DNA of 64,000 nt from assembly GCF_021729845.1 (NCBI RefSeq), contig NZ_CP063397.1, forward strand, positions 3,300,001 to 3,364,000. Reading direction: 5' to 3'. Position numbers and translations under genes: made by a program. Under the pieces are notes generated by a model that did no database searches, was not told the origin of the DNA, and was given only the letters and a program-made list of their open reading frames with translations. The DNA comes from Rhizobium sp. SL42. Lineage in GTDB: Bacteria; Pseudomonadota; Alphaproteobacteria; Rhizobiales; Rhizobiaceae. Below, in pieces: positions 16,699-38,331 of the stretch (position 1 is the first letter of the stretch; each line of letters starts with the position of its first letter).

Positions 16699-18783
16699 TC
16701 AGGCAGCACGTCCGGGCTTGCCCGGAACGGCGGACGATCCGGCGTCCGCTTCAATTTCCCGCACAAGATTGACCACATCGCTCAGCGCAGACAGCGGCAC
16801 CGGCCGACCGTAGAAATAGCCTTGCACCTGCTCGCAGCCCTCGGCCTGAAGGAACCGGACATGTGCCTCGCTTTCCACGCCTTCGGCCAGAACAGGAATG
16901 TCGAGACTGGCGGCAAGGATCAGCGTCGACCGCACGATCGCCGCTGATTGCCGGCTGCTGGCCACGCCATCGATGAAGCCGCGATCGATCTTGATCTTGT
17001 CGAACGGAAACAGTTGCAGCGTCGAAAGCGACGAATAGCCCGTTCCGTAGTCGTCCATCGCAATCTTCACGCCGATCGCCTTCAGTTGACGGATGATCTG
17101 CAGCGCATGTTGCTGGTCGGCGATGATGCCGGATTCGGTGATTTCCAGCTCCAGCCTTTCCGCCGGCAAGCCGCTTTCCTCGAGAATCTCGCGCACCCGC
17201 TCGGGCAGCCTGATATCGGCGAGCTGCTTCGGCGCGACATTGACCGCGATCCTCAGCGGATTGCTCCATTTCACTGCCGCGAGGCAGGATTGACGCAGAA
17301 CCCAATCGCCAAGTTCGAGGATGAAACCACTGCGCTCGGCAATCGGGATGAATTCGTTTGGCGAGACAAGGCCTCGCACCGGATGGTTCCAGCGTAACAG
17401 CACTTCCAGACCGATCACGTCGCCGGTCGCGGTGTCGTTCTGGCGCTGATAATACAGTTCGAACTCGCCACGCAGGAATCCGCTGCGCATATCCATCGCC
17501 AGCGCATTGCGCTCGCGCGCCGCAAGGTCCATCGAGCGGTCGTAGAAGCAGACATTGTTCGATCCGATCGCCTTGGCCCGGTACATGGCGATATCGGATT
17601 GCGCCATCAGGTCATCAATGCTCTCGGCACTCTCGGGATACATCGTGACGCCGATGCTTGTTCCGATCGACAGGGTCTCGCCCACCCATTCGACCGGGGC
17701 ACCGAGATCCTGGATGACCTTTTCGGCAAACTGCTGTGCATCCGCCTTGGTGTAGAGCCGCGACGATACGGCGACGAATTCGTCTCCGCCGATGCGGGCG
17801 ACAAACTCACCTTCGCGCAGACGGGCACTGAGCCGCTCGCCAACGGCCCGCAAAACCTGATCCCCGGCTGCATGGCCATGTACGTCGTTGATTTCCTTGA
17901 AGCGGTCGAGATCGAACGAAAACACGTAGATGCGCTCGCTGTGCGCCGATGGCATATCGATCATGTGCGTCAGACGCTCGATAAACGCCGCGCGGTTTGG
18001 CAAGCCAGTGAGCGCATCGTGCAACGACAACTGGCGATAACGCTCGACAGCCGATTTCGACGATTGCCTGTCGATCGCATAGGAGGTGGCGCCAATCGTC
18101 ATGATCATCAGGGTCACGACGACGACGACGACCGTCAGAATGCTTTCCGGCAACACGTCATACGGCAATTGCGCCTGCATGTTCGGCACGACGGTTACCG
18201 CTGTCATACCGAGAAAATGGGTGGAGGCGATGGCAAGAAGCAAGGCCGCGCCGCCGCCCAGGCGACAAAAGCGCGTCAACGGCCGCGACGCACGGTTTGT
18301 TGCGATCGCCCCGAAAAGCGCCCCGCAAATCAGCGACATCACCACATAGCTCCGGTCCCATTCGAGGTGACCCTGAACCTGGTAGCCGCTCATGCCGACA
18401 TAGTGCATCGCCGCGATGCCGAGACCGACAAGGCCGCCGCCCGCCTCGATGGCCAGGCTGCGCTGGGCGATGCCGGCAATGGCAAATCCAATACCCGTGA
18501 TGCTGACGGCCAGAATGAGCGACATCAGCGTCCGCTGTGGCTCGTAGCCCGTCACCACCCCGGCTTCGTAACCCATCATCGCAACGAAATGCGTGGTCCA
18601 TATCGAACAACCACCGATCACGCTGGTCAGTGAGATCCAGCTCGCCCGGGCCATGCCGCGCGTACCACGGATACGGCCGAACAGCCGCATCGTGAGAAAG
18701 GCACCACAGATGCATATTCCAACCGCGGCAGCCAATGAGACGGGATCATGATCGACGACAATGCAATTCACGAATTTCAGCAT
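16699..18783 (-). CDS. MHYT-GGDEF-EAL cyclic-di-GMP enzyme
   Basis: 694-residue inner-membrane protein. The N-terminal MHYT sensor (about 1-240) has its repeats THFVAMM, MHYVGM and THFLGM, proposed to bind a metal and sense gases. The GGDEF domain (about 265-425) keeps the active motif RIGGDEF but lacks a clear RxxD inhibitory site. The EAL domain (about 440-680) reads EVLLRW instead of EALLRW yet keeps the other expected residues: AVNVAPKQ, ELEITES, MDDYGTGYSS, DKIKIDRGF, AEGVES and QGYFYGRP. Both synthesis and breakdown of c-di-GMP are possible. It starts at ATG 18783, directly after an in-frame TTG, and is transcribed alone. Confidence 0.93.
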   Translation of the reverse strand: MLKFVNCIVVDHDPVSLAAAVGICICGAFLTMRLFGRIRGTRGMARASWISLTSVIGGCSIWTTHFVAMMGYEAGVVTGYEPQRTLMSLILAVSITGIGFAIAGIAQRSLAIEAGGGLVGLGIAAMHYVGMSGYQVQGHLEWDRSYVVMSLICGALFGAIATNRASRPLTRFCRLGGGAALLLAIASTHFLGMTAVTVVPNMQAQLPYDVLPESILTVVVVVVTLMIMTIGATSYAIDRQSSKSAVERYRQLSLHDALTGLPNRAAFIERLTHMIDMPSAHSERIYVFSFDLDRFKEINDVHGHAAGDQVLRAVGERLSARLREGEFVARIGGDEFVAVSSRLYTKADAQQFAEKVIQDLGAPVEWVGETLSIGTSIGVTMYPESAESIDDLMAQSDIAMYRAKAIGSNNVCFYDRSMDLAARERNALAMDMRSGFLRGEFELYYQRQNDTATGDVIGLEVLLRWNHPVRGLVSPNEFIPIAERSGFILELGDWVLRQSCLAAVKWSNPLRIAVNVAPKQLADIRLPERVREILEESGLPAERLELEITESGIIADQQHALQIIRQLKAIGVKIAMDDYGTGYSSLSTLQLFPFDKIKIDRGFIDGVASSRQSAAIVRSTLILAASLDIPVLAEGVESEAHVRFLQAEGCEQVQGYFYGRPVPLSALSDVVNLVREIEADAGSSAVPGKPGRAA

Positions 18784-19102
18784 CAAATGGGACCGTGTGT
18801 AAAATCTTGCGCATCACCCACTTAGCAGTCGTCAATTTCCAAATGCTTGGCAAAGATAGTTAGCGAGATCGCTACGCTGGCGGAAATCGCGATAAATCCG
18901 AAGTTAATCGCCAAGAACCCTTGCCGGCCAACGGTATTGTTGCAACGAAACTTGCTATTCCGGGGGGACTGGTTTATAGCGCCCCCGTCCGCGTAGACAC
19001 CCTTGGAGGCAACGCGGATGAGGCCGTCAAACGCCTCCAGTCCTGGAACGCCGCTGAAAGGCAGCCACCAGGGCTCTCCAGACAACTTGAAAGGTTAAAG
19101 CC
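18784..19102. other. Intergenic region with divergent promoters, rplY leader
   Basis: 319 bp between the divergent MHYT-GGDEF-EAL gene and rplY. The right half holds the rplY promoter and a leader of about 115 bases containing the 6-bp inverted repeat CCGCGT (18989-18994) and ACGCGG (19012-19017). The left half is AT-richer and presumably carries the promoter of the c-di-GMP gene. No gene is seen. Confidence 0.5.
18952..18980 (+). promoter_or_regulatory. Candidate rplY promoter
   Basis: TTGCTA (18952-18957), a 17-bp spacer and TATAGC (18975-18980) match the housekeeping sigma consensus in layout. Transcription from about 18987 would give a leader of some 115 bases before rplY, unusual enough to suggest regulation in the leader. 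Confidence 0.55.
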
Positions 19103-19714: not shown

Positions 19715-19723
19715 TAGAAAAAG

Positions 19724-19754
19724 AACCCGCCTTGGAAACAGGGTGGGTTTTTTT
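19724..19754 (+). terminator. Rho-independent terminator of rplY
   Basis: Stem AACCCGCC / GGTGGGTT (eight pairs, one G-T wobble) around a 10-base loop, followed by a run of seven T. It is the clearest terminator on + in the window. Confidence 0.85.
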
Positions 19755-19909: not shown

Positions 19910-22291
19910 ATGCCGATGACACGATCAGTCGAGAGCCGATTCCTGGCGATTGTTGCGATCACGATCTTCATTCTTGTGGTTCCGCTCTTTGCCCTGTTCC
20001 TCTCGCTCACCACCGAGCGCGCCTCCAGCGAATTGCAGCAAAACCTGGAAGTGCTGATCGCCGCCAATGGCCAGGCTCTCGCAAAACCGATGTGGGATTT
20101 CGACCGCGAGAGCGTCGAACAGATCACCGCAACGATCATCTCCAACACCACCGTCAGCCGTGTTCACGTCCGAGATCTGTCCAATGGCATCAATGTCTCG
20201 ATGCCGGCGCTGCCGAAATGGCCGAAGAACGGCCTGAGTTCGATCACCCGCGAAATCTTCTACCATGCCATCGAGGGCCCGAAACTCGTCGGCACAATCA
20301 CCATATATTATAGCCGCATCGACATGTTTTCTTCGCTCCGCCAGGCGGAGGTGATCCTGATCGGCATTTTCATGCTCGCCGTCCTTGGCGTCGTCGGCGC
20401 TGCCGTCGTCGGCAACCGCATCATGGTGATGCGACCCTTGCTCAAACTGACGGCCGCCATCGAGGCGACCCGCAGGCTGGGTTCGCGCCACCATGTCGAC
20501 TGGCAGTCAAATGACGAAATCGGCCGCCTGGCGCGCAGCTTCAACGCCATGCAGATCAAGCTTGAACGGGAAGAGCGCGAACTGAAGCTTGCCCATCAGC
20601 GCACCACCGAAATTTATAACCTGACCCCCGCCATGCTATTTTCGCTCGACGAGCAGGACCGCATCACCGGCGTCAGCGACTACTGGTTGCTCGCCACCGG
20701 CTATCAGCGCCACACGATCGTCGGCCGGCATTTTTCCGAACTCGTGCCACTCGACGCCTGGGAAAACTATCTGGAGCGCAAGCGTACCAAGGCGATTGTC
20801 GGCGTCCTCGAGGCCACCACCCGCTTCGTCTGCGCCGATGGCACGGTCATGGACGTTCTGATCGCCGAGGCAAATCGTGAGGCGCAGGAGGGCGACGAGG
20901 GCCTTTCGCTCAGCGTCATGACTGACGTCACGGCACTCAAGCAGTCCGAGGAGCGCAACCACCGTCAGGCGATCACCGACCACCTGACGGGCCTTCGCAA
21001 CCGCCAGGGCTTCGAGAACGCACTCGACGACGAGATCAAGCTGACCGACGCCACTGAACACGAACTTGCCTGCATCTTTGTCGATCTTGATCGGTTCAAA
21101 TGGATCAACGACAATCTCGGTCACCAGGCTGGCGATACAGTGCTGTGCCATTTCGTCGAACGGATGAAGGCACATTTGCCGATCGGCGCGACGGCGGCCC
21201 GACTTGGCGGAGACGAGTTTGCCATCTTGTTGCGCGCCCCGGATGCCGAGAGCGTTGCCATGGAACTGAGCCGGCAACTCTGCGACATCTTTGTCGAGCC
21301 GATCAAGATCGATGGCGCAACCGCCCGCCTGAGCGCAAGCGTCGGCATCGCCATCTATCCACGTCATGCGGCCAATGCGGCAGAACTGCTGCAGAAGTCC
21401 GACATGGCGATGTACAGCAAGAAGCGCGACGGCAAGAATGGCGCTCAGCTCTACAATCCGCTCATTCAGGACGACACGCGCCAGCGCGCCGAGATCGAAC
21501 ACGATATCGAGCAGGGATTGAGCAACGACTGGTTCGAGGCATTTTTCCAGCCCATCGTCCAGATCGAAAGCGGCAGGGTCGTCGGCTACGAGGCACTGAT
21601 GCGGCTTGTGCATCCGGAGCGCGGCATCGTGCCGCCAACCGAAATCATTCGGATCGCCGAGGAAATCGGCGCCATCGGCAAGGTCGGCGGCCGGATTCTG
21701 GAAAAGGCGCTGGAAAACCTGGTGCGCCTGAGCAAAGCAACGGATGACGACAGCACCTACCTTGCGATCAACTTCTCGCCGCTGCAGTTCGAGCCGTCGC
21801 TGCCGGTCCGGCTGGCGTCCTTGACGACAAGGCACGGCATCGCGCCCAAACGCATCGTCATCGAGATCACCGAGGCAACCCTGCTGCACGACAACCCGCA
21901 GATCCGCACCATTCTCGATGACTTCAACCGCTTCGGCTATCGTATTGCGCTTGACGACTTCGGCACGGGCTACTCGTCGCTGAGCTATCTCAACCGCTTC
22001 CCGGTCGATATAGTCAAGATCGACCAGTCCTTCATCCGCTCGCTGTCGGAAGTCGAGCCCGAACTGCGCAACAAGAGCCGCATGCTGGTCGAAGGCATCA
22101 CCGCGATCTCGCACAAGATGGAATGCAGTGTCGTCGCGGAGGGCGTTGAAACCGACGAACAGCGCCTCCTGCTCCAGGAATTCGGCGTGGATTACGGCCA
22201 GGGATATCTTTTCGCGCGACCGCAACCGGTCGCAGCCCTGATCGACGCCGCTATCACGAAAAACCGACTGCGCGAGGGTGCGGCGGGTTAG
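19910..22291 (+). CDS. Membrane PAS-GGDEF-EAL cyclic-di-GMP enzyme with periplasmic sensor
   Basis: 793-residue inner-membrane signalling enzyme. Transmembrane helices at about 10-32 and 144-166 enclose a periplasmic sensor of about 110 residues. HAMP (about 167-222, with NDEIGRLARSFNAMQ), PAS (about 232-350), GGDEF (about 365-525, ARLGGDEF, no RxxD site) and EAL (about 540-785) domains follow. The EAL domain keeps YEALMR, AINFSPLQ, EITEATL, LDDFGTGYSS, DIVKIDQSF, AEGVET and QGYLFARP, so phosphodiesterase activity is likely, and synthase activity possible. AGGAG lies just upstream of the ATG. A periplasmic binding protein is encoded 27 bases downstream, probably its ligand-sensing partner. 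Confidence 0.93.
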   Translation: MPMTRSVESRFLAIVAITIFILVVPLFALFLSLTTERASSELQQNLEVLIAANGQALAKPMWDFDRESVEQITATIISNTTVSRVHVRDLSNGINVSMPALPKWPKNGLSSITREIFYHAIEGPKLVGTITIYYSRIDMFSSLRQAEVILIGIFMLAVLGVVGAAVVGNRIMVMRPLLKLTAAIEATRRLGSRHHVDWQSNDEIGRLARSFNAMQIKLEREERELKLAHQRTTEIYNLTPAMLFSLDEQDRITGVSDYWLLATGYQRHTIVGRHFSELVPLDAWENYLERKRTKAIVGVLEATTRFVCADGTVMDVLIAEANREAQEGDEGLSLSVMTDVTALKQSEERNHRQAITDHLTGLRNRQGFENALDDEIKLTDATEHELACIFVDLDRFKWINDNLGHQAGDTVLCHFVERMKAHLPIGATAARLGGDEFAILLRAPDAESVAMELSRQLCDIFVEPIKIDGATARLSASVGIAIYPRHAANAAELLQKSDMAMYSKKRDGKNGAQLYNPLIQDDTRQRAEIEHDIEQGLSNDWFEAFFQPIVQIESGRVVGYEALMRLVHPERGIVPPTEIIRIAEEIGAIGKVGGRILEKALENLVRLSKATDDDSTYLAINFSPLQFEPSLPVRLASLTTRHGIAPKRIVIEITEATLLHDNPQIRTILDDFNRFGYRIALDDFGTGYSSLSYLNRFPVDIVKIDQSFIRSLSEVEPELRNKSRMLVEGITAISHKMECSVVAEGVETDEQRLLLQEFGVDYGQGYLFARPQPVAALIDAAITKNRLREGAAG

Positions 22292-22318
22292 AAACACCAC
22301 GAAGAGAGGCATACCGCA

Positions 22319-23059
22319 ATGAAAGTTCTTGGCATACTGCTTTCACTTGCGGCGGCCCCGGTTGCCGCCGCCGATACTGTCTACTTTACCACCGAAGACT
22401 ACCCTCCTTACAATTTCCGCGCCGGCAACGACATAAAAGGCGCGGGCTACGACCAGTTGATCGTCATCATGGAGGAGTTGAAGATCCCCTACTCCGTCGA
22501 GATGATGCCCTGGGCACGCGCCATCGCACTCGCCCAGACGGAGCCGATGCATTGCGTATTGACCACCGCCCACATCCCCGAACGCGACACGCTGTTCAAA
22601 TGGGTTGAGCCGCTGGCGATCGGCCGCAATCTGATGGTGGCCCGCAAAGGATCCGGCCTTGATGTGAAGAATACCGACGAGGCCAAGTCTTACACAGTTG
22701 GGACACAGCGCAATGATTACACTCAGACGCTGCTGGAGAATGCCGGATTTGAGAAAATCGATCTCGCCACCGATCTCAAACTGACATTGAAGAAACTGGA
22801 AAGTGGCCGCCTCGATCTGATGCCGATCGACGAACAGCATTACGTGCAACTGGTAAAGGACGGCGAACCCCTGGAGGTCAAGTTCGTTTTCACCGAGCAG
22901 AAGTTCTCGATCGCCTGCAATTCATCTTTCCCGGATGATCTGCTGGCCAGGATGCAGGGTGCGCTCGACACGATAATAGCCGATGGCCGGCAGGCCAAGA
23001 TTCTCGGAAACTATGGCCTGATCGATTCGAATGTCGAAGCACGCGCGGCAACGCCTTGA
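22319..23059 (+). CDS. Periplasmic solute-binding protein (SBP_bac_3) without transporter
   Basis: 246-residue periplasmic protein. MKVLGILLSLAAAPVAAAD is a signal peptide. The mature part starts VYFTTEDYPPYNF, the usual opening of amino-acid-type family 3 binding proteins, then GYDQLIVIMEELKIPYSVEMMPWARAIALAQ and TLKKLESGRLDLMPIDEQHYVQLV. No permease or ATPase gene is nearby. It follows the GGDEF/EAL gene by 27 bases in the same direction, so the pair is probably cotranscribed. The likely role is to bind a small ligand and signal to the periplasmic domain of that enzyme. Start has GAGAGG upstream. Confidence 0.85.
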   Translation: MKVLGILLSLAAAPVAAADTVYFTTEDYPPYNFRAGNDIKGAGYDQLIVIMEELKIPYSVEMMPWARAIALAQTEPMHCVLTTAHIPERDTLFKWVEPLAIGRNLMVARKGSGLDVKNTDEAKSYTVGTQRNDYTQTLLENAGFEKIDLATDLKLTLKKLESGRLDLMPIDEQHYVQLVKDGEPLEVKFVFTEQKFSIACNSSFPDDLLARMQGALDTIIADGRQAKILGNYGLIDSNVEARAATP

Positions 23060-36459: not shown

Positions 36460-38331
36460 TCAGGCCTGCTCGACAACACCCTTGGTATCGAGGAAACCGC
36501 CGGATTGCCGTGCCCAGAGCTCCGAATAGAGCCCGCCCCGCGCAACAAGATCGGAATGTGTGCCCTGTTCGATGATCCGGCCCTTGTCCATCACGACGAG
36601 GCGATCCAGCGCGGCAATGGTCGATAGCCGGTGGGCTATGGCCAGGACCGTCTTCCCCTGCATCAGCTTGTCGAGGTTGGACTGGATCGCCGCTTCGACT
36701 TCCGAATCGAGCGCCGACGTCGCCTCGTCCAGAACGAGGATCGGTGCATCCTTCAGCATCACACGGGCAATCGCGACCCGCTGGCGCTGCCCACCCGAAA
36801 GTTTCACCCCGCGCTCGCCGACATGCGCATCGAAAGCCTTGCGTCCGCGTTGGTCCTCCAGCCGCTGGATAAAATCGAGCGCCTCGGCCCTGTCCGCTGC
36901 TTTCAGCAGCTGCTCGTCCGACGCGTCTTCGCGTCCGAATACGATATTGTCGCGGATCGAGCGGTGCAGCAGCGCCGTATCCTGCGTTACCATGCCGATC
37001 TGCGACCGCAGGCTCTCCTGCGTTACCGTCGAGATATCCTGGCCGTCGATCATGATGCGGCCGCCCTCGACGTCGTAGAAACGCAGGAGAAGATTGACGA
37101 GGGTCGACTTCCCGGCCCCGGAACGGCCGACGATGCCAACCTTTTCGCCCGGCGCAATGGTCAGCGTCAGATGATCGATCACGCCCTTCTTGCGGCCATA
37201 GTGAAAGCTCAAATCCTCGAAGCGGATCTCGGGCGACACGACCCTCAGCGCCGTAGCGCCGGCGCGGTCGGTAAGGTCGATAGGCTTGGCGATCAGCTCG
37301 GCGGAATTCTGGATCGTGCCGATATTGCGCATGATGCTGTTGAGCTGCGTCATCATCCGGCCGAGCAGCATGTTGAGCCGCAGCACGAGGCCGAGCGTGA
37401 ACGCGACCCCGCCGCCGGTGATCGCGCCGGAAAACCACAGATCGATCGAAATTGCAGCGACCATCACGATCATCACCCCGGACAGGATGGCAAGCGAGGC
37501 CCGGACGCCCGTCAGAAGTCGCGCAAAGGGCCTCAGCGTGTCCTGGAAACGATCAAAGCCCGCCTTGATATAGTGGTCGTTCTGCCGCTCCTTGCCGAAC
37601 AGCTTCAGCGTCTGGATATTGGAATAGCTGTCCACCAGACGTCCATTCAACATCGACGATGCTTCGGCCGATTCCTTGGCGTGATAACGGATGCGCGGGA
37701 CGAACAGGCGCGCAAGCACGAGGAAGATCGCGATCCAGGCGCCGATGACTGCCGACAGCCGCCAGTCGAGCTGCGCAACCAGGGCCATGGTCGAGATCGT
37801 GTAGATCACCATGAACCAGACCACCTGCAGCAGCGAGGTCAGCAGATCCCCGGTCGACTGACCTGCGGACCACACCTTGGTGACGATGCGTCCGGCAAAA
37901 TCATTCTGAAAGAACGAAAGCGATTGCCGCGCGACATGCGCATAGGCCTGCCAGCGCACCAGATTGAAGAAGTTGAGGACGATCACCTGTTCTTCTACCA
38001 GCGCACCGATCGTCACGACGATGAATCGACCGGCGAGCATGACCAGAGCCATGGCGGCAAGCTCGCCACCATGGGCCGCGATCAACCCCTCCCATCCGGC
38101 ATCCCTGGGCACGGTATCGAGCACATCGACCAACCGGCCGACAAACCAGAACAGGCCGGCCTCCAGCACTGCGATCGAACCGCCGAATACCGCCATGAGC
38201 AGGAAAGCAAGCTTCGCCTGGCTGACATAGAACCAGACGAACGCCCACGTCTTCTCCGGCGGACGCAAATTGTCCACGCGGGAAAAAGGATCGAGCCAAT
38301 TTTCGAAGAGACGAGCAACAGAATTAAACAT
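36460..38331 (-). CDS. ABC-type exporter, fused permease-ATPase (copy 1)
   Basis: 623-residue half-transporter. Six transmembrane segments (about 1-330) precede the ATPase domain. Walker A is GRSGAGKSTLVN, the ABC signature is LSGGQRQRVAIARVML, Walker B is ILVLDEATSALDSE, with H-loop IAHRLSTIAALD. The pattern is that of MsbA-like exporters working as homodimers. It is strikingly similar to the gene at 41667. The substrate could be a lipid, peptide or drug. A minus-strand terminator for the upstream chemoreceptor separates it from that gene. Confidence 0.92.
   Translation of the reverse strand: MFNSVARLFENWLDPFSRVDNLRPPEKTWAFVWFYVSQAKLAFLLMAVFGGSIAVLEAGLFWFVGRLVDVLDTVPRDAGWEGLIAAHGGELAAMALVMLAGRFIVVTIGALVEEQVIVLNFFNLVRWQAYAHVARQSLSFFQNDFAGRIVTKVWSAGQSTGDLLTSLLQVVWFMVIYTISTMALVAQLDWRLSAVIGAWIAIFLVLARLFVPRIRYHAKESAEASSMLNGRLVDSYSNIQTLKLFGKERQNDHYIKAGFDRFQDTLRPFARLLTGVRASLAILSGVMIVMVAAISIDLWFSGAITGGGVAFTLGLVLRLNMLLGRMMTQLNSIMRNIGTIQNSAELIAKPIDLTDRAGATALRVVSPEIRFEDLSFHYGRKKGVIDHLTLTIAPGEKVGIVGRSGAGKSTLVNLLLRFYDVEGGRIMIDGQDISTVTQESLRSQIGMVTQDTALLHRSIRDNIVFGREDASDEQLLKAADRAEALDFIQRLEDQRGRKAFDAHVGERGVKLSGGQRQRVAIARVMLKDAPILVLDEATSALDSEVEAAIQSNLDKLMQGKTVLAIAHRLSTIAALDRLVVMDKGRIIEQGTHSDLVARGGLYSELWARQSGGFLDTKGVVEQA

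Follow-up and report, generated by a model that had tools for sequence, protein, structure and literature searches.

A transporter-less solute-binding protein beside a GGDEF-EAL enzyme in Rhizobium: a candidate co-receptor in c-di-GMP signalling

Results

We analysed a 64 kb stretch of DNA from Rhizobium sp. SL42 (Rhizobiaceae; contig NZ_CP063397.1, positions 3,300,001 to 3,364,000; hereafter the window), in which rplY, the gene of a membrane-bound cyclic di-GMP (c-di-GMP) enzyme, the gene of a secreted family 3 solute-binding protein (SBP) and pth follow one another in this order. The two middle genes lie on the same strand and are the subject of this study. The GGDEF-EAL protein (793 aa; 19910..22291, + strand), referred to below as the enzyme, was characterized by Pfam matches, hydropathy and ortholog alignment. 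It consists of a transmembrane segment (TM1), a periplasmic sensor (residues about 33–146), a second transmembrane segment (TM2) and the domains HAMP (173–219), PAS (PAS_9, 242–342), GGDEF (354–510) and EAL (532–771); hydrophobic segments at residues 5–38 and 140–174 flank the periplasmic loop. The sensor region (residues 1–172, comprising TM1, periplasmic domain and TM2; 19910..20425, + strand) was defined by AlphaFold2 and by a profile that matches kinases and a cyclase elsewhere.

The SBP (246 aa; 22319..23059, + strand), our proposed co-receptor, was recognized by its SBP_bac_3 match, its AlphaFold2 model and its adjacency to the enzyme. SBP_bac_3 was the sole Pfam family found at E 0.001 (41.7 bits, above the cut-off of 26.4), the N-terminus carries a hydrophobic segment of signal type according to hydropathy, and among the solved chains matching the protein, amino-acid and glutamine binding proteins predominate. 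Its nearest named relatives are from Rhizobium sp. 18065 and PDO1-076 (both 96%). No NCBIfam equivalog scored above cut-off among the 25 of 35 enzyme matches listed and the three of three SBP matches. The AlphaFold2 predictions are confident for the SBP, with alternating helices and strands [mean predicted local distance difference test (pLDDT) 90.4], and for the greater part of the periplasmic domain; enzyme residues 1–235 reached 75.4 overall, with block values of 86–90 over residues 41–100 and 91 over 111–130. When the sensor was compared by sequence search with solved structures, only chance-level matches were obtained (best: 4u64, E 0.33). CHASE5 (PF17149) gave no match up to E 5 in enzyme residues 1–343, and an Ensifer ortholog scored 17.2 bits, under the cut-off of 27.

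The two genes share a reading frame. The enzyme stop codon is TAG, and the intergenic gap of 27 bases (22292..22318, + strand) contains a purine-rich stretch of ribosome-binding type. Upstream, the pair is bounded by a strong rplY terminator (19719..19754, + strand; minimum free energy −23.8 kcal/mol, z −5.9). Downstream, pth begins 82 bases beyond the stop codon of the SBP, and a pattern scan for + strand terminators between SBP and pth found none, a scan that also missed the rplY terminator. A prediction made earlier from the sequence alone (the original prediction) had described this enzyme with its periplasmic loop, the 27-base gap and a family 3 SBP with a signal-type N-terminus, and coordinates, lengths, Pfam matches and hydropathy agree with it. 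Its claim that the pair forms a unit of its own holds for the upstream boundary; the downstream boundary is open.

We surveyed the pair in a genus sample of 36 genomes including that of the window (cut-offs: SBP E < 1e-70, enzyme E 1e-100). The SBP was detected in 33 genomes, and 30 of these loci were examined with flanks of 1.5 kb. The enzyme lay directly upstream of the SBP in 29 loci; the remaining locus ends at a contig edge and its enzyme was found on another contig. All 30 SBP genes are followed by pth. A search for the enzyme was positive in 7/7 SBP-bearing genomes and in 0/3 genomes lacking the SBP, so that SBP and enzyme are lost together in all three SBP-less genomes of the genus.

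The family sample comprised 297 genomes of 109 genera (GTDB family) and was searched with the SBP and the enzyme N-terminus at E 1e-20. The SBP occurred in 59 genomes from 21 genera and the enzyme N-terminus in 64 genomes, which include all 59 SBP carriers. Two of the five SBP-less matches are weak and represent different proteins (29% identity), one being a kinase (G144, locus L187) and the other (G146) having no SBP match nearby. We examined 59 further family loci (L042–L100) from 56 genomes, distinct from the 30 genus loci, and found enzyme and SBP adjacent in all of them, 56 times between rplY and pth and three times elsewhere. Among 94 orthologous pairs, all with both genes on the same strand, the median gap was 27 nt (range −4 to 324); a value of −741 (L148) is artefactual, caused by an in-frame stop. 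The conserved order rplY-enzyme-SBP-pth in 56/59 family loci means that part of the adjacency is owed to vertical synteny. A lack of co-occurrence had been named in the original prediction as a refuting outcome and was not seen. In five family loci of genus g39 (L053, L054, L056, L058, L076) two tandem SBPs accompany a single enzyme, possibly giving one receptor a choice of two ligand specificities. A record labelled as a Rhizobium leguminosarum plasmid (NZ_CP022567.1) also contains the block rplY-enzyme-SBP-pth-clpS-ychF, which elsewhere lies on the chromosome; the explanation is either assembly naming or a real translocation.

One ATP-binding cassette (ABC) permease and one ATPase from the window's own genome served as queries for transporter genes. 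No permease match was obtained in the window, and the nearest ATPase match starts at 36463, about 13 kb off, in agreement with the original prediction that neither gene is near. Within flanks of about 7 kb (shorter at contig ends), the permease matched in 0/59 and the ATPase in 1/59 family loci. We therefore rejected the SBP as an ABC component; association of its homologs mostly with ABC permeases, which would have spoken against the original prediction, was not observed. As a control, the same queries found a permease at 5/6 other SBP_bac_3 loci of the own genome (4/5 when the locus of the query itself is left out); this genome has 15 SBP_bac_3 matches besides the window SBP, 16 in all. The permease also matched at none of 40 further SBP loci (L198–L237), one from the family and the others from other families. 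Taken together, these results support the view that SBP and enzyme form one evolutionary unit with no transporter adjacent to it.

Some of the more distant SBPs merit separate mention. SBPs of this PWxRA type, many per genome and with no permease match nearby, occur in some Alphaproteobacteria (L213, L218, L221, L223, L225, L228, L234 in G918, and L206 in G693, where five stand in a row). In Roseibium hamelinense (G691; L169/L199), an SBP that is 48% identical to the window SBP stands alone in the vicinity of MgtC and LysR genes. Such an SBP is also present in a congener (L200), and G691 has a true pair too (L201).

The pair was also found away from rplY. Three genomes of genus g70, presumably Sinorhizobium, carry a second copy (L044, L047, L048), and SBP matches were obtained in ten Sinorhizobium megaplasmid records; in the one record checked, that of Sinorhizobium fredii CCBAU 45436 (L255), the enzyme lies beside the SBP. 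Separate SBP and enzyme trees included three relocated copies (L047, L048, L255). In both trees these form one clade that is sister to L051 (support 0.98 for this grouping), and the native copies cluster with Ensifer-type loci (supports 0.95–1.0). SBP and enzyme thus relocate as a pair. In L044 (7001–10073) a frameshift splits the relocated enzyme between two frames, while the adjacent SBP is intact, reflecting a pseudogene or a sequencing error.

Some distant SBP relatives have neighbours with other outputs. At L101 the neighbour is a HAMP protein of the methyl-accepting chemotaxis protein (MCP) type, at L189 a kinase-receiver hybrid and at L192 a class III cyclase; the neighbour at L190 is a HAMP protein that matches CHASE5 weakly and is cut by the contig end. 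The enzyme search yielded another kinase-receiver hybrid from the same family as the window (L187), preceded by an SBP-like open reading frame (ORF; 64 bits with our own SBP profile, 12.4 bits with Pfam). We built a sensor profile from the 172 pre-HAMP residues, HAMP excluded (102 alignment rows). Among sequences outside its rows, it matched the cyclase L192 (E 7.5e-22) and the kinase L189 (8.8e-19); the kinase L187, itself one of the rows, was matched at 1.6e-34. The chemoreceptors L101 and L210 matched at 5e-5 and 4e-4. By these values, the kinase and cyclase outputs are firm and the chemoreceptor output is weak. The sensors of the kinase L187 and of a cyclase at L238 are 47% identical.

A reciprocal search with the sensor profile in 397 genomes of the order gave 34 matches in 32 genomes. 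The best 22 of the 34 (E up to 3.2e-17) adjoin an SBP_bac_3-type gene, in 9 loci of the family and 13 of other families; 8 of these 13 (L189–L194, L201, L202) had been detected via their SBP and were themselves included in the sensor alignment. The independent part of the test is therefore provided by the sensor matches outside the alignment (L238–L242), and 5/5 have an SBP. A random gene would have an SBP_bac_3 neighbour in an estimated less than 1% of cases, based on the 16 matches in the own genome. Among the weaker matches, a kinase (L254; sensor profile 38 bits, clear CHASE5 domain with 45.6 bits) overlaps or abuts an SBP gene. The SBPs of L187, L238–L242 and L254 scored 56–74 bits with our own profile, compared with 28–47 bits for the ABC SBPs of the own genome, and may belong to other SBP_bac_3 subfamilies. 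The distances between SBPs are correlated with those between sensors, both in the full set of 25 pairs (r 0.69; 0/5000 permutations) and in the 16 pairs outside the rplY-pth arrangement (r 0.64; 0/5000 permutations), a correlation that would also be expected from shared descent alone. In other families (L189–L194, L101) the pair occurs without a match to rplY or pth in the stretch examined. Judged from these comparisons, the sensor is the more constant half of the pair, and the kinase and class III cyclase sensors keep the SBP neighbour when the output is exchanged. In family f35 (L243–L246, L248), a sensor-GGDEF-EAL protein occurs without an SBP in the stretch examined.

The GGDEF aspartate and ten catalytic-type residues of the EAL domain are invariant in 89/89 aligned orthologs. 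Assuming, as we do, the usual catalytic roles of these residues, both activities are likely to be present. The mean distances were 1.30 for the periplasmic domain, 0.91 for the SBP, 0.55 for GGDEF and 0.56 for EAL; periplasmic domain and SBP evolve fastest, which would fit ligands that change. Comparison of 39 SBP sequences showed Arg89, Glu26, Trp65, Arg67 and Trp95 to be invariant. Of these sequences, 35 have both Cys79 and Cys200 and the other four have neither, which suggests a disulphide. Position 171, which we take to be that of the usual amino-group-binding Asp, is Ser in 25 sequences and Asp in one, that of the window. The Arg equivalent to the usual carboxylate-binding residue is invariant. 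A carboxylate-bearing ligand, which may or may not be an amino acid, is therefore to be expected. In view of position 171, the amino-acid-type ligand of the original prediction is uncertain.

On the other side of rplY lies a divergent gene for a second c-di-GMP protein, of MHYT-GGDEF-EAL type (16699–18786, − strand), so that this ribosomal protein gene is flanked by two c-di-GMP enzymes. Homologs of the MHYT-GGDEF-EAL protein hold the same position in many of the loci examined.

Discussion

The results demonstrate the architecture of the pair, intact catalytic residues, a nearly constant adjacency without a transporter, co-loss, joint relocation and retention of the SBP under output exchange. 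We consider it likely that the SBP is a transporter-less periplasmic co-receptor that switches a bifunctional c-di-GMP enzyme; the contact, the ligand and the direction of switching are what we infer. The SBP would bind a small carboxylate-bearing ligand in the periplasm, not as a transport component, and would dock on the CHASE5-like periplasmic domain of its neighbour. The change would pass through TM2 to HAMP and PAS and would shift the balance between GGDEF (synthesis) and EAL (degradation). As to direction, our guess is that the enzyme without SBP leans to synthesis and that the SBP pushes it towards degradation. A switch to degradation driven by a binding protein has reportedly been described for ScrC.

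An experimental anchor may exist in S. fredii CCBAU 45436. According to the available text of PMC8546604, SFb47640 and SFc23720 are diguanylate cyclases of HAMP-PAS type; when they are expressed as individual proteins in Escherichia coli, both Congo red binding and c-di-GMP increase. The main text contains neither "substrate-binding" nor "solute-binding". In the unannotated record of pSF45436b we obtained 7 GGDEF and 14 HAMP matches, with a single ORF having both (792 aa, near 127–128 kb), and this ORF lies directly upstream of an SBP homolog. The tags SFb47640, SFb52570 and SFb59510, counted at ten per gene, fit the GGDEF matches at 127, 635 and 1362 kb. SFb47640 is thus probably the plasmid (megaplasmid) copy of the enzyme. 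If this identity is right, the overproduced enzyme makes c-di-GMP without its SBP, which would make the SBP a brake or a switch to degradation.

Several observations weigh against the co-receptor reading. Three family genomes (G316, G151, G219; L184–L186) keep the enzyme between rplY and pth and have lost the SBP, of which no remnant was detectable in these loci. Relaxed constraint on their sensors was not seen: the sensor identities of L184 and L185 to the five nearest relatives compared are mostly in the range of paired orthologs, two of the five values for L184 lie below the 5% quantile, and L186 is within range. Among the 40 further SBP loci, a receptor-type ORF lies within 300 bp in 11 (three GGDEF-EAL with sensor, five MCP, two kinase, one GGDEF), farther away in five and is absent in 24, indicating that the wider SBP subfamily is often orphan; prediction works from the sensor side, where an SBP neighbour is to be expected. 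Of the 12 weaker matches in the reciprocal search, 10 have no SBP in the stretch examined, and at L249 the SBP is about 800 bp away. The SBPs of L240 and L241 are divergent and part of an ABC importer. The SBP and enzyme trees conflict on genus g39, where the five enzymes form one basal clade, and four of the five enzyme-proximal SBPs fall near the relocated copies with the fifth basal. Finally, the mirror-tree partial correlation with the SBP was unspecific (0.50 for the periplasmic domain, 0.49 for GGDEF), and we rejected it as proof of contact between SBP and sensor because GGDEF correlates equally well.

The SBP could alternatively feed an ABC transporter encoded elsewhere, its place beside the enzyme being a frozen rplY-pth gene order. 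Orphan SBPs can serve distant permeases, and both the 15 other SBP_bac_3 matches of the genome and the conserved order in the 56 family loci would suit this explanation, as would L240 and L241, where an ABC SBP stands beside such an enzyme. However, a frozen order does not account for relocated copies that move as a pair, for the pairs of other families without rplY or pth matches, or for a partner that swaps its output yet keeps sensor and SBP neighbour. We regard this alternative as unlikely.

Alternatively, the enzyme might sense the ligand directly, with the SBP in an accessory role, scavenging or buffering that ligand. The persistence of the enzyme without SBP in 3/62 family genomes with a strong enzyme match fits this explanation, and the fast evolution of the periplasmic domain would likewise be expected of a ligand pocket. 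It leaves unexplained, however, why this sensor has an SBP beside it whichever of three clearly distinct outputs it is joined to, and why both genes were lost in the three SBP-less genomes of the genus, and we consider it improbable. Although we found no experiment in the literature searched that links SBP and enzyme, that two adjacent genes are functionally unlinked is hardly credible given the genus and family counts and the adjacency at order level in other gene neighbourhoods.

Returning to the co-receptor reading, the original prediction is partly supported: the conserved pair of a transporter-less SBP and a c-di-GMP enzyme is real, and the most interesting part, the reuse of the input pair with other outputs, lies beyond what had been claimed. 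With more reserve, we favour the idea that SBP_bac_3 and a short CHASE5-like domain may form a portable two-gene input module of Hyphomicrobiales, plugged into c-di-GMP enzymes, histidine kinases, class III cyclases and perhaps chemoreceptors. The ABC-importer SBP of L240 and L241 (158.9 bits in Pfam at L240), encoded with its permeases divergently from a GGDEF-EAL protein that carries the sensor, would then possibly reflect the ancestral arrangement, serving both uptake and signalling.

To our knowledge, few of the extracellular cues by which rhizobia switch c-di-GMP have been established. The pair provides a soluble receptor for ligand screening in 21/109 sampled family genera, and the probable S. 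fredii ortholog of the enzyme is an already published cyclase. The output-swapped relatives allow one to ask whether one input architecture drives different second messengers. Since c-di-GMP is a signal for settling down, the pair would tie this decision in a soil bacterium to a secreted binding protein.

SBP-activated receptors are established among chemoreceptors, kinases and c-di-GMP enzymes, and the genes for SBP and kinase are linked in 10 of 11 characterized cases, according to the available text of PMC11113362. The window pair shows this gene association. According to PMC8846402, SBP_bac_3 of RmcA was the one domain of the periplasmic-binding-protein clan to have been studied in a c-di-GMP protein. 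We found no description of the window pair in the open-access literature searched, outside which most subscription papers lie, and none by term search in PMC9756655.

The original prediction had likened the pair to NspS-MbaA of Vibrio cholerae. This system, represented in Sinorhizobium meliloti by smc00991-smc00992, likewise pairs a periplasmic SBP with a neighbouring GGDEF-EAL protein that is anchored in the membrane and has HAMP as well as a periplasmic domain at its N-terminus. As far as described in the available text of PMC9993111, MbaA lacks an RxxD I-site, as does, by our own reading, the window enzyme; NspS is PotD/PotF-like and reports polyamines, whereas the window SBP belongs to family 3; and nspS precedes and overlaps mbaA, whereas the window SBP follows the enzyme after 27 nt. 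The periplasmic part of MbaA is given as 24–256, compared with about 110 residues in the window enzyme, and MbaA has SGDEF with no PAS named there (PMC9993111), whereas the window enzyme has a PAS domain. The comparison therefore stands as an analogy, and we rejected membership in the NspS-MbaA lineage on the basis of binding-protein family and gene order.

Other systems resemble the pair in part. PruR-DcpA of Agrobacterium tumefaciens, from the same bacterial family, reportedly also consists of a periplasmic protein reporting to a GGDEF-EAL enzyme, but the ligand is said to be a pterin and the fold other than SBP_bac_3. In Salmonella, STM1987 is reportedly a diguanylate cyclase only and its partner ArtI is said to belong to an arginine transporter, both unlike the window pair. 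The likeness is that ArtI, a periplasmic arginine-binding protein, is required for the response of a membrane c-di-GMP protein; the STM1987 sensor is dCACHE_1, unlike that of the window enzyme (PMC8846402, available text). In ScrB-ScrC of Vibrio parahaemolyticus, a periplasmic binding protein switches a dual-function c-di-GMP enzyme encoded in the same operon (PMC10269520, in the part available). ScrA makes the ligand in the scr operon, whereas the window has no gene of this kind in the interval from rplY to pth; ScrB and ScrC are likened here by description. ScrB-ScrC may perhaps be as good an analogue as NspS-MbaA, and the best reading by analogy is that the window pair would work like one of these two systems without belonging to the NspS lineage.

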